Shown in pieces: positions 47,212 to 51,285 of a stretch of DNA of 53,291 bases. A program made the position numbers and the translations under genes. Source of the stretch: Acidobacteriota bacterium (lineage in GTDB: Bacteria; Acidobacteriota; Terriglobia; Terriglobales; Acidobacteriaceae); the NCBI GenBank assembly GCA_003225175.1, contig QIBA01000065.1, positions 1 through 53,291 of the forward strand, in the 5' to 3' direction. The notes under the pieces are model-generated. The model saw only the letters and a program-made list of their open reading frames with translations, did no database searches and was not told the origin of the DNA. The stretch's first letter is position 1, and the number at the start of each line of letters is the position of its first letter.

Positions 47212-48867
47212 ATGGAATTTGGGCCTGACAAGGTATTCGTAGTCGAAGTTGACGCCACCGCGCGCGAGCACGTCACCAAAATTCTGACTGACGCGGGCTA
47301 TCAGGTCGCCGGTCAGATCGCTGCTACCCTAAAGATGGTACTGGCGTCCATGCCGGACGTGATTGTTATGGGCGCGAGTCCTCCCGATCTGGACTGCTGT
47401 GATCTCCTGGCTGAGGTTAAGCGATCGGAACAGGCGCGGCATATTCGCGTCATCATGATGGCCGACGGCGGACCTGCAGAAAGAATTCGAGGCCTCGACC
47501 TCGGTGCCGACGAGGTGCTTTCTGTTCCCTTCGACGATCGCGAGTTATTGGCTCGAGTGCGCGCTCAACTTCGCGAGAAGCGTCCTGAGGATGAGCTGCG
47601 CGCCACCGTACGCGATGGCAGGAATTCGCGTCGGGAAGCTCGCCGCGTTCTGCGTGCACTCAATCAAGGCAAACGAACACTGCGTCTTGGAGTCGCGCTG
47701 CTGATCGTGGTTGCGGCGCTCGTCACTGGAGGTCTTGGCTTCCTCTACTGGGGTTCGCAACGGCAAAACGTTCGCGTGTACACCGCGCTGGCGAAGTTGC
47801 AAACTGGTATCGCAAGCGAACGCGAACTGCTCGAGCTGGCGCGCAAGGCCAGAGCCCAGGCGGAACAGAACGCGATCGATTCGACGGAAGCACAGCGCCA
47901 GGACCTCAAGCGCCAGAACAAAGAACTGCGCGACAAGATCGCCGGCGCCGATCCATCCCAAGTGGCAGAACTTGAGCGTCAGCTTCGCACTTCGAACGAA
48001 CGCCTGCAGAAGCTCGAAACCGAACGCACGGTTGCGCAGGACGTAATCCGCTCGTACTCGTCGAGTGTGTGCTTACTGCATGTTGTGGTTGGTTTTCGCG
48101 ACAAAGGCTCTGGTCTGATTCTCCGCTACTCCACAATGACTCCCAACGGCTCGCCGCTCGCGGATGCAAATGGGCAAACACAGGTACAACTCGGTGGAAT
48201 AGGTCCCGAAGTGCATATGGACGCCTTCGGAACCGGATTCCTCGTTTCAGCCGATGGCCGTATCGTAACAAATCATCATGTGGTCGAGCCCTGGTGGAAG
48301 AACGACGACATCGCGGAACTACTGAAGCAGGCCGTCGACTTAGAGCCGAGAATTGTCGAGACCACCGCATACTTTCCCGGCCTCTCCAATGGCATTCCCG
48401 TAAGCCTGCAGAAAATTTCTTCCGACGCTGACCTGGCGGTGGTCGCAGGCAACATCTCCGGACTGAAGCTCAAGCTGCTGTCGATGGATGACAGTCCGAA
48501 AGCCGCCGTGAGCGGACAGCCAGTTGTCCTGATCGGCTATCCCACGGGTGTAGATGCAATCCTCGCACGAACCAGCGAAGATGCTGTGCGCGCCATCGCC
48601 CAGAATACGAATGGCGACGCAAAGAGCCTGGTGAACGAACTCGCGCATCGCAACCTCATCCGGCCAACCAATACGCAAGGACACATCGGCGATGTCCTGG
48701 CAGACAAGATCATCTATGACGCGCAAACCACCTCCGGCGGATCAGGCGGCCCACTATTCAATGCCGAAGGAAGAGTGATCGCCGTAAACGTAGCCATGCT
48801 CCGCGACTTCGGCGGCTCGAACTTCGCGATTCCCGTGCGCTACGCCAAGCCATTGCTATCGCGGTAA
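47212..48867 (+). CDS. degenerate receiver - membrane helix - coiled coil - trypsin-like protease
   Basis: A 551-residue chimera. Residues 1-120 have the receiver fold, but the phospho-acceptor Asp position reads Gly54 (VIVMGASPP), the KP lysine reads Val105 (SVPF), and the switch Thr is lost. A membrane helix (158-180) and a coiled coil (185-280) follow. Residues 290-551 are a chymotrypsin-fold protease with His356 (TNHHVV), Asp407 (DADLAVV) and Ser511 (TTSGGSGGPL), so the triad is complete; no PDZ domain is present. The receiver would be cytoplasmic and the protease periplasmic, an HtrA-like arrangement joined to an inside sensor. Function inferred only. Confidence 0.85.
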   Translation: MEFGPDKVFVVEVDATAREHVTKILTDAGYQVAGQIAATLKMVLASMPDVIVMGASPPDLDCCDLLAEVKRSEQARHIRVIMMADGGPAERIRGLDLGADEVLSVPFDDRELLARVRAQLREKRPEDELRATVRDGRNSRREARRVLRALNQGKRTLRLGVALLIVVAALVTGGLGFLYWGSQRQNVRVYTALAKLQTGIASERELLELARKARAQAEQNAIDSTEAQRQDLKRQNKELRDKIAGADPSQVAELERQLRTSNERLQKLETERTVAQDVIRSYSSSVCLLHVVVGFRDKGSGLILRYSTMTPNGSPLADANGQTQVQLGGIGPEVHMDAFGTGFLVSADGRIVTNHHVVEPWWKNDDIAELLKQAVDLEPRIVETTAYFPGLSNGIPVSLQKISSDADLAVVAGNISGLKLKLLSMDDSPKAAVSGQPVVLIGYPTGVDAILARTSEDAVRAIAQNTNGDAKSLVNELAHRNLIRPTNTQGHIGDVLADKIIYDAQTTSGGSGGPLFNAEGRVIAVNVAMLRDFGGSNFAIPVRYAKPLLSR

Positions 48868-49240
48868 TCTCCTGCGAGGAGTAGGTCGGCAGTGCGCTTA
48901 TTGCACGCGCGGCTGTGATGAAGGTTCCGGCCGCTCTCGGCCGGTACCAGGCATGCGACACCATACTGCTGAGTGTTCCACGAAGTACACAGCTATAAAG
49001 ACCACCATCCTTTTCTCCACATTCACCTCCCCACCTTTTCAAGCTTCCTGCCGTTCGGCTGAGCTGTTAAAGGAAGCGAGTAACTAGCACGTAACCGGCA
49101 CCCAGTGAAAAAGGATGGAAATTGATCCATCTTTCCATCGCTCCTGCGGATGAAGATTCATCCGCAGCACGTGTGTCAGAACTGAAGACTATCCAGACAC
49201 TTCTTACAAAACCAAACTGGGAAACGTCTGCGTTCTTCGA
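48868..49240. other. gap with one solo repeat
   Basis: No gene is supported. It holds a single TTCCGGCCGCTCTCGGCCGG palindrome (48925-48948) without its partner, and a purine-rich stretch near 49100. The promoter of the next operon begins at 49241. Confidence 0.45.
48925..48948. repeat. solo palindrome (CCGGCCGCTCTCGGCCGG family)
   Basis: The same core as the paired elements at 17806, 24906 and 31339, here alone. Confidence 0.6.
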
Positions 49241-49269
49241 TTGACGTCAGCTGACGGCAAGTGTATGGT
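49241..49269 (+). promoter_or_regulatory. promoter of the sorting-substrate operon with overlapping palindromes
   Basis: TTGACG (49241-49246) and TATGGT (49264-49269) are 17 bases apart, a good sigma-70 layout with a leader of about 35 bases. Two perfect palindromes overlap the -35 region: TGACGTCA (49242-49249) and GTCAGCTGAC (49246-49255), likely operator candidates. Confidence 0.45.
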
Positions 49270-49310
49270 TGTCGGCACATCCGCCTTCCCAGTCCCAAAA
49301 GGAGCCTTTT

Positions 49311-49856
49311 ATGAAGCGAATGTTCTGGGGCCCCTTCTGTTTGTTGCTGTTCGTTGCCGTTGTCTTTCCGGGAATGTGTATTGCTCAGGCGTCCGGCTAT
49401 CTCGTCATGTTGACTCCGCCGACGCCACCTACCATTTCCGCTCCGGCCGGAGGCACGTCTCTGGCGATTATCATCGTCATCCCACTGAATGGCTTTACCG
49501 GCCGCGTAACTTTTACTTGTGCTGTTTCGGGAGGAACACCACCACCGCCAACCTGTTCCACGCCTACACCCGTGACGGTCACCAGTAACCCAACTGCCGA
49601 AAGTTTGAAGACGGTCGCCACACTTACGAGCGACCGCACTACCGGCAGCGCTACCTTCAACTTCAGCGTGACCGCAACCAGTGATCGCGGCACAGCGCCG
49701 GTTAATGGACCGCAGACAATGCCCATAACGGTCGAGCACAGGTATGGTATTGGGAACGAAGGAGGAGGAGGGTCCGTGGCCCTCTTGACGCTCGCCGCGT
49801 TGGTGGCTTTTTGGAGCCTGACACGCGTTCGCCGCAAGAAAGCTGCTTTACAGTGA
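49311..49856 (+). CDS. exported protein with C-terminal sorting-type tail
   Basis: A 181-residue protein with a signal peptide (MKRMFWGPFCLLLFVAVVF, cleavage probably near CIAQA). The mature part is Thr/Pro/Ser-rich with beta-sandwich-like strands (GFTGRVTFTCAVSGG; TGSATFNFSVTATSD) and two cysteines (Cys70, Cys82). It ends with Gly-rich EGGGG (150-154), a hydrophobic stretch SVALLTLAALVAFWSL (155-170) and a basic tail TRVRRKKA, the three-part plan of CTERM sorting signals, though not the PEP motif itself. GGAG precedes ATG 49311. The stop overlaps the next gene start, which encodes an exosortase-like protein. Confidence 0.8.
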   Translation: MKRMFWGPFCLLLFVAVVFPGMCIAQASGYLVMLTPPTPPTISAPAGGTSLAIIIVIPLNGFTGRVTFTCAVSGGTPPPPTCSTPTPVTVTSNPTAESLKTVATLTSDRTTGSATFNFSVTATSDRGTAPVNGPQTMPITVEHRYGIGNEGGGGSVALLTLAALVAFWSLTRVRRKKAALQ

Positions 49857-50365
49857 CTGGAACGCCACTAGCGAAGATTGCCGTCGGCCCGTCAGCCGTC
49901 CCACTCCCGCGTTTAAATCGCGACTTTTTGTGTCGCCTAGCGATGGTGGCAATCTTCGTACTGGTTGCTCATCAGTTTGCGTGGAATTGGCTGTGTTTTC
50001 TGACCTCTGAAGCGCTCCTTCGTATTTCTGCATTCTTGGGACTGGCGGTAGCGAGAGTCTCATTCGATACGCTCAGCGTGAACGGCCAACTCGTGCAATA
50101 CGTAACCTCTTGCACATTCATCGATGTCTATCTTGGATCCGTGCCTCTTCTCTGGAATCTCAGGAACACGTCACTCCAGAATTTTTCCTTTCTCTCGGCG
50201 ACTGCCATAATTTTCGCCGCTCTTAACATTGTGCGGCTCGAAACCGCCCTCGTGATGTTCGCCGACGGCATTTCATGGACCGTCGCAGATGGCCTCCTCG
50301 GAGGTTTAGCGTACTTTGCCATTTGGCGATTCATTTGGCGGCAGCGAAGCTGGCGGTTGATGTAG
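49853..50365 (+). CDS. small exosortase/archaeosortase-like membrane protein
   Basis: A 170-residue integral membrane protein. GTG 49853 overlaps the preceding stop (GTGA, 49853-49856). Features match the exosortase/archaeosortase core: an extracytoplasmic segment (RVSFDTLSVNGQLVQYV) leading to Cys87 (TSCTFIDVY) at a membrane edge, then a NIVR motif (Asn125-Arg128) at the end of another helix. The third expected residue, usually His in an HD-like motif before the last helix, reads Ala145-Asp146 (TVADG). It is shorter than typical exosortases (about 280 residues). Together with the upstream protein it looks like a dedicated sortase-substrate pair. The call rests on motif pattern alone. Confidence 0.6.
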   Translation: MTGTPLAKIAVGPSAVPLPRLNRDFLCRLAMVAIFVLVAHQFAWNWLCFLTSEALLRISAFLGLAVARVSFDTLSVNGQLVQYVTSCTFIDVYLGSVPLLWNLRNTSLQNFSFLSATAIIFAALNIVRLETALVMFADGISWTVADGLLGGLAYFAIWRFIWRQRSWRLM

Positions 50366-50439
50366 CAGACAGGCTGCCCATCTCTTCTCATTCAATTTTG
50401 AGCGGGTGAAGCTTCTTATTCCTGATACAAGTGCTCGCG

Positions 50440-51285
50440 TCAGCTTCCGGCAGTGCGGTTCATTTTTCCAACCAGCACGACCTCCGGATCGCTCACAGTC
50501 ATGACTTTTACTCCGGCCTCTTCGGTGAAACGAATGCGGACCGCCGGCGCGCCGCCAGGGTAGAACACCTGCTCGCCTAAGTGGAATAGAACCCGACCGA
50601 TAGTGCCCCTGCGCGTCCAAGTGAGTTTTCCTTTTTCAACGGACACATCGACTTGTTGGGTGAGACCTTGTCCAAAGACGTAGGTTCCGAGAATGGCGGA
50701 GAGGTCATGGTCTGGGAGCGGGGCTTCGGGGGAGCCGCCTGCATCTCCGAGTGACTGCAGAAATTCAAAAACCGGGCGCGCTGCTTCGCCGCCGGCTTTG
50801 GCGTGCGCGAGCAGGCTGATGCTGTGCGGACCTGAAGTTCGCTGGATGCCTGGGTGGGCCGCGACGAATGCCTTCACCACATCCAGTTGCCCGAGCATGC
50901 TTGCAGAGAAAATGGAAGGATGCGCACCATTCGCCAGCAGAAGCTCGGCGATCGGGCGATTCCCCATATGGGATGCGGCTCCGAGCGCGCTCTCCCAGTC
51001 ACCAAACCCCCAATCCCAGGTAGCCTTTGCCAAGGACGGACGCGCGGCTACCAACTCTTTCACGCGCGCCAAGCTGAAATGGGAAACCAGCACCATCTCC
51101 CGCGCCAGTTCCGGTGGCTCTGCCGGGTAGAGATCCCCCGGGGCAGGTACGCTCGACCAACTCTTCGCGCTCGCTGTCGAGTCAGATTTCGGCGGTGAAA
51201 ACTGCGAATGCAAGTCCATCGTCCACAGCGGCATCGTTAACGTGGTAACCGTCAGGAATCGCCTTCGCGATAACCTCTCAGACAT
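50440..51285 (-). CDS. Tat-exported ankyrin-like protein
   Basis: A 281-residue protein with a twin-arginine leader (MSERLSRRRFLTVTTL). Residues 60-170 look like ankyrin repeats (VKELVAARPSLAKA; GNRPIAELLLANGAHPS; GQLDVVKAFVAAHPG). The C-terminal third is a beta-rich domain (LSAILGTYVFGQGL; VRIRFTEEAGVKV) resembling the DUF3471-type tail. ATG 51285 has GGAGG upstream at a good distance; a GTG at 51297 touches the same site. Function unknown. Confidence 0.8.
   Translation of the reverse strand: MSERLSRRRFLTVTTLTMPLWTMDLHSQFSPPKSDSTASAKSWSSVPAPGDLYPAEPPELAREMVLVSHFSLARVKELVAARPSLAKATWDWGFGDWESALGAASHMGNRPIAELLLANGAHPSIFSASMLGQLDVVKAFVAAHPGIQRTSGPHSISLLAHAKAGGEAARPVFEFLQSLGDAGGSPEAPLPDHDLSAILGTYVFGQGLTQQVDVSVEKGKLTWTRRGTIGRVLFHLGEQVFYPGGAPAVRIRFTEEAGVKVMTVSDPEVVLVGKMNRTAGS

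Follow-up and report, generated by a model that had tools for sequence, protein, structure and literature searches.

Two genes on the forward strand overlap by four nucleotides in the window, that is, the whole stretch of 53,291 nucleotides that was analysed. The first encodes a predicted exported protein and the second a small membrane protein, and we refer to them as the substrate and the enzyme in keeping with the interpretation developed below. The features of the region are as follows.

49241..49269, + strand: sigma-70-like promoter, TTGACG (49241-49246) and TATGGT (49264-49269) with a 17-nt spacer, 9/12 in a consensus scan
49241..49260, no strand assigned: imperfect palindrome TTGACGTCAG/CTGACGGCAA over the -35 hexamer, 9 of 10 positions pairing
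49300..49304, + strand: AGGAG, ribosome-binding-like site 5' of the substrate gene, from reading the sequence
49311..49856, + strand: substrate gene, predicted exported protein of 181 aa (ORF translation; homologues at loci L019 and L054)
49311..49388, + strand: signal-peptide-like stretch, about residues 1-26, boundary set by eye from the translation
49758..49853, + strand: tripartite C-terminal signal of the substrate, with E150, GGGG (49761-49772), a hydrophobic stretch at about residues 155-171 (49773-49823) and basic RVRRKK (49824-49841)
49853..49856, + strand: GTGA, 4-nt overlap of the substrate stop and enzyme start, from reading the sequence
49853..50365, + strand: compact exosortase-like membrane protein of 170 aa, GTG start (ORF translation, relatives, structural model)
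50111..50113, + strand: Cys87, candidate nucleophile, present in 8/8 enzymes and in the TIGR04178 register of relatives
50234..50236, + strand: Arg128 of N125-I-V-R128, present in 8/8 enzymes
50288..50290, + strand: Asp146, in the alignment column of the usual His (His 5/8, Asp 3/8)

The translated substrate has a Thr/Pro-rich body and ends in EGGGG-SVALLTLAALVAFWSL-TRVRRKKAALQ, the hydrophobic stretch being 16-17 residues in length. An initial annotation of this DNA had described an exported protein with an EGGGG/hydrophobic/RVRRKK tail, followed through a GTGA overlap by a 170-residue membrane protein carrying Cys87 and NIVR; the 181-aa translation confirms the former and the reading frame the latter. 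Nothing in NCBIfam or Pfam matches the substrate above the cut-offs, with no match to the PEP-CTERM model TIGR02595 in NCBIfam and none of the tail to GlyGly-CTERM in NCBIfam or Pfam (the GlyGly-CTERM model was presumably included in the NCBIfam version searched), whilst against the IPTL-CTERM model TIGR04174 of NCBIfam the tail scored 12.4 bits, under the cut-off of 20.5. The region from 48860 to 50480 had no match in Rfam.

The initial annotation also proposed that the pair has its own operator-like promoter; for a dedicated operator we find no support. The promoter-like site, which ends 41 bp before the substrate start codon, is at chance level (one found, with a shuffle mean of 0.8); TTGACG/TATGGT recurs upstream of the pair at L019 and TTGACG/TATCGT precedes an unpaired substrate in L086, thus in two of the four related upstream regions. 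The palindrome is unusual in that arms as good as those found here arose only 7 times when the 124-bp region was shuffled 500 times, but no second copy of the palindrome exists in the same genome at up to two mismatches, and it was not seen by eye in any of the four related upstream regions (L019, L054, L085 and L086). As the palindrome is not conserved, a dedicated operator was dropped from consideration.

A further repeat, a perfect 11-bp inverted repeat with a 2-nt gap (CTGCGGATGAA/TTCATCCGCAG, window 49144-49167), lies between the pair and a protease gene upstream; of 500 shuffled versions of the upstream region, 1 had ten paired arm positions. The protease gene (window 47212-48867, + strand) encodes 551 aa, in which a response-regulator receiver (4.5e-10) and a trypsin-like peptidase (3.6e-19) were identified as domains and a probable membrane helix by eye, the receiver apparently being fused to an extracytoplasmic protease.

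Homologues of the enzyme were found in 3 of 100 related genomes, own genome included. A profile of three enzymes matched 5 of the 398 genomes of the taxonomic family, again counting its own, and among 396 genomes sampled from the phylum its own was the sole match; a four-row profile matched 3/299 genomes of the class, own included, and a scan of genome contigs with five sequences returned four loci. No enzyme relative was found by a single-sequence pattern search of genome contigs, nor was any relative found in the viral contigs searched. Eight distinct loci are considered here, namely the window, L009 (in genome G035), L008 (G020), L010/L022 (G155), L011/L021 (G194), L019/L053 (G885), L020 and L054 (G879), with enzymes that span 148-179 aa, a size range that supports the separate short clade suspected when the protein was first noted as unusually short.

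At all eight of these close-family loci the gene directly upstream encodes a protein whose tail consists of Gly-Gly or a longer glycine run, a hydrophobic stretch and a basic end, and the distance between the two genes ranges from the 4-nt overlap up to ~65 nt. The order of motif, helix and basic tail seen in targets of the exosortase type is thus present in 8/8 pairs, and the co-occurrence of the enzyme with neighbours bearing Gly-rich/hydrophobic/basic tails, which the initial annotation had proposed to look for, is borne out. The eight do not include a paralogue on contig C6 of G020 (L006/L012/L017), with which the pairing becomes 8/9; this XrtX-like protein is hit by the family profile at 1.7e-10 and shares 26% identity with the window protein, and the gene directly upstream of it lacks a Gly/hydrophobic/basic tail. 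The paralogue (L006 1393-2016, - strand) is a second short XrtX-like enzyme in a pair-bearing genome, and the gene two upstream of it ends in a hydrophobic stretch and RVRRRK.

The substrate bodies are Ser/Gly/Thr-rich in four cases, made of NHL repeats in one, and of a shared Cys-containing type in the window, L019 and L054; as far as can be read from the sequences, what is common to the pairs is the tail and the enzyme and not the body of the substrate. The pair substrate with NHL repeats (L021 4503-5963, + strand) resembles the cyanobacterial ScyF-type NHL PEP-CTERM proteins in these repeats and in its match to NF035926 (2.1e-12), but differs from them in scoring 46.9 bits against a cut-off of 350 and in having a GGP-type tail. 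The substrate of L020 scored 10.1 bits against the PEP-CTERM model TIGR02595, for which the cut-off is 16.

A profile made from seven tails, which could miss divergent targets, was searched in seven pair-bearing genomes, those of all the loci but L020. In 7/7 it gave one significant match per genome, always the neighbour of the enzyme and at an E-value of 2.6e-6 or better, with the next-best match anywhere among the seven genomes at E 0.027. The profile had been built in part from the genomes searched, six of the seven being represented in it by their own tail; the exception was G879, the tail of which, absent from the profile, was still top-ranked in that genome. Six of the 21 weaker matches were inspected and five of them were not C-terminal; the sixth, at L064 (G885, E 0.31), covers the final helix of a membrane protein of 477 aa, after which comes RARR, and has no glycine motif.

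Genomes with a substrate and no enzyme provide a natural comparison. The substrate search matched 25 of the 299 class genomes at 1e-6, with five strong matches (1.8e-69 or better), three of them in genomes with the enzyme and two in genomes without it (G959 and G811), and with weaker, mostly partial matches (E 1e-6 to 1e-19) in the other 20. The genus of G959 and G811 comprises 36 genomes, of which four have the substrate and two the enzyme; in these two drafts, both ~95% complete, no enzyme match was found up to E 0.1. The substrates of G959 and G811 share 63-69% identity with the G885 and G879 substrates and retain both helix and basic end, with the run of three glycines broken, the aligned columns reading G-S-A in G959 and L-A-G in G811. 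This breakage is suggestive of a link between glycine run and enzyme, although not cleanly so, because the G811 tail retains a Gly-Gly adjoining the helix and Gly-Gly is likewise all that the paired L021 tail contains, so that the paired and unpaired states overlap. The gene found after the pair in L019 has an 84% identical counterpart in G811, where it comes after the substrate with no enzyme between. The two unpaired tails have a small insertion in common and therefore G811 and G959 probably reflect one event, for which these sequences fit enzyme loss and late gain equally. The pairing at eight of eight loci, the single significant tail match in each of seven genomes and the broken glycine run in two genomes without the enzyme support the initial proposal of a one-substrate system with a non-PEP signal.

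Aligning the eight enzymes reveals that Cys87, Thr88, Asp91, Asn125 and Arg128 are identical in all of them, so that the N..R pair which is invariant in the exosortase model TIGR04178 is present as N125 and R128 in 8/8. The column of the third residue is ungapped and reads W142-x-[VLM]-[AG]-[H/D], with Asp in the window, L019 and L054 and His in the remaining five. The initial annotation had placed Ala145 at the position of the usual His, which is incorrect, as it is Asp146 that holds this column and Ala145 lies one residue before. The conserved His of TIGR04178 is absent from all three Asp proteins, the window enzyme included. For the two Asp sisters, the points at which their TIGR04178 matches end (162 to 89 and 157 to 89) place the Asp at profile position 73, by arithmetic that assumes no gap near the end, and at the same position the canonical exosortases L001 and L031 have His.

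The window enzyme shares its Asp with two homologues at 53-54% identity (L019 and L054), and the three form one side of a branch in the tree with support of 98/97. Between the L019 and L054 enzymes dN is 0.25 and dS 1.06, whilst the dS values of the window enzyme with these two are 2.6 and 3.2, silent sites being near saturation. From these comparisons the Asp form is judged to be a stable, monophyletic variant under purifying selection. That the missing His might be a sign of gene decay was considered and dropped, given the conservation of the Asp in a monophyletic, constrained subclade.

We regard it as possible, and put it forward tentatively, that the proteins of the Asp clade are functional sorting transpeptidases built around a Cys-Arg-Asp centre on a minimal 170-aa scaffold, acting on a single GGGG-type signal. 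A conserved exosortase set of Cys, Arg and His is named in one paper (PMC4343526). For ArtA, Cys173, Arg214 and Arg253 are given as critical in a second paper (PMC9263693), and the spacing of 41 between Cys87 and Arg128 equals that between ArtA Cys173 and Arg214; Arg253 of ArtA follows Arg214 by 39 residues, compared with 18 for the third residue of the window enzyme, a comparison that does not establish equivalence of place. The Asp-clade proteins could instead be devoid of catalysis, serving in the membrane to escort, anchor or protect the neighbour, to which they would be dedicated, by binding its tail without cutting it, as an Asp would be unable to do all that a catalytic His does, it is fixed in a monophyletic clade of three, and the constraint on this clade is equally to be expected of a binding partner. 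We consider this unlikely, although it deserves to be taken seriously, since neither the Asp clade nor the His clade varies at Cys87, Thr88, Asn125 or Arg128, and the critical residues given for ArtA suggest that the His may be dispensable.

Searched on its own, the window enzyme has no match in NCBIfam or Pfam, rhomboid models included, where the HMMER filters drop most weak matches, and its one match in PHROGs is weak and unnamed (E 0.016); the profile search proposed in the initial annotation thus yields no exosortase or archaeosortase model for the window protein itself. No curated NCBIfam cut-off is reached by any of the eight enzymes, the best of them against TIGR04178 being L019 with 15.8 bits where 23 are required. 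Below the cut-offs, L054 matches archaeosortase A at 4.7e-4, and L019 matches ArtH at 0.0011 and TIGR04178 at 0.013, with the Cys of L019 and L054 falling, by arithmetic from the match ends, at TIGR04178 position 7, the same as in L001 and L031. Nine of the 11 weak NCBIfam matches of the eight members are to exosortase/archaeosortase models, the other two being SbmA and TorS, and none of the eight reversed sequences matches any model. Furthermore the L006 paralogue matches XrtX at 9.5e-6 and so forms a bridge from the family profile to XrtX. When seven members were compared by hhalign with 30 exosortase segments of acidobacterial origin (from a set of 31 loci, L032 being excluded as a fragment), the probability was 2% and the register wrong, so that support for the family link comes from short archaeosortase-type models and from one paralogue.

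The predicted structure of the enzyme, of medium confidence (pLDDT 69, pTM 0.55), has five helices; the Cys, preceded by three short strands, begins one helix, the following helix carries N..R and the third residue starts the last. A fold search with this model found no match at E 0.001 in the PDB or BFVD, which weighs little because the model is of medium confidence and one full exosortase, searched by sequence against the PDB, likewise retrieved only an unrelated chain (E 0.4); a solved exosortase relative may be absent from the PDB.

These results would also bear on the idea that the 170-aa protein is unrelated to exosortases, being a small membrane thiol enzyme or a membrane protein with a similar layout of Cys and Arg. 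The lack of a curated match, the failed hhalign comparison, the five helices of the model and the CTF in place of CSG are what one would expect of such a protein, yet the predominance of exosortase/archaeosortase models among the weak matches and their absence from the reversed controls, the Cys in the TIGR04178 register and the bridging paralogue all argue for common descent, and we hold an unrelated protein to be improbable. The family is not an exosortase by curated criteria, with scores below the cut-offs, no His in the window protein and CTF for CSG, and is probably a distant cousin of the exosortases and archaeosortases by descent. Of the kinship originally claimed, the relationship itself survives as probable through the sub-threshold matches of relatives, whilst the window protein itself matches no model and the hhalign comparison failed.

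In comparison with the exosortase/archaeosortase family (TIGR04178; ArtA, ArtH, ArtE and the short XrtX/XrtY models), the enzyme is alike in being polytopic, in having in the model a Cys that starts a helix behind three short strands, N..R in the helix after it and the third residue where the last helix begins, and in a predicted target with motif, helix and basic tail. It differs from TIGR04178 in its sub-cut-off scores, its length of 148-179 aa, CTF rather than CSG and the Asp for His in one subclade, and its Cys-Arg spacing of 41 compares with 45 in 28 of 30 acidobacterial exosortase segments. Dedicated sorting by one enzyme of one neighbour has been described (PMC3237569) for rhombosortase and GlyGly-CTERM, a system that the pair resembles in its apparent single target, adjacent gene, Gly-rich motif, helix and basic end, and from which it differs in that the enzyme has no rhomboid match and the tail no GlyGly-CTERM match. 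Cutting of the tail by some other cellular enzyme, either one of two full exosortases or a rhomboid-type protease, with the small neighbour as an accessory, is very improbable, for although two exosortases of this genome pass the TIGR04178 cut-off while only two PEP-CTERM matches pass theirs, and the Gly-rich tail is superficially GlyGly-CTERM-like, this tail matches neither PEP-CTERM nor GlyGly-CTERM and IPTL-CTERM only below its cut-off, and the pair is present in only 3/37 relatives with a full exosortase. The two exosortases of this genome, G000, are L001 and L002 on contigs C116 and C40, and one of its PEP-CTERM matches lies in a 25-aa frame.

Our preferred reading, to which we give a probability of roughly 0.6, is that the gene pair is a dedicated, compact exosortase-like sorting pair with a GG(GG)-type signal, the window enzyme belonging to a Cys-Arg-Asp subclade. 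The C-terminal helix and basic end would hold the exported protein in the inner membrane, where the 170-aa protein would recognise the glycine motif just outside the membrane. Cys87 would then attack the chain at this motif, aided by Arg128 and by the third residue, which is a His for the majority of members and Asp146 for the window enzyme, and the freed body of the substrate would pass to an acceptor, either a lipid or a polysaccharide, or be released. Cleavage, its site, the acceptor and the activity of the Asp form are in this scheme what we infer from the genes.

To our knowledge little is understood of target recognition and cleavage by exosortases, and many exosortases serve many proteins. 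A search of the open literature by title found nothing on acidobacterial exosortases, a GGGG-type exosortase signal or the Asp variant, whilst a mention in closed papers is possible. An enzyme of 150-180 aa with a single neighbouring target would be a convenient minimal system, for which related genomes with the target but without the enzyme offer a comparison. If the Asp clade is indeed active, it would be a case in which nature has exchanged the third catalytic residue of an exosortase-like enzyme, and as His and Asp forms occur naturally in one family, the role of this residue would be directly testable.
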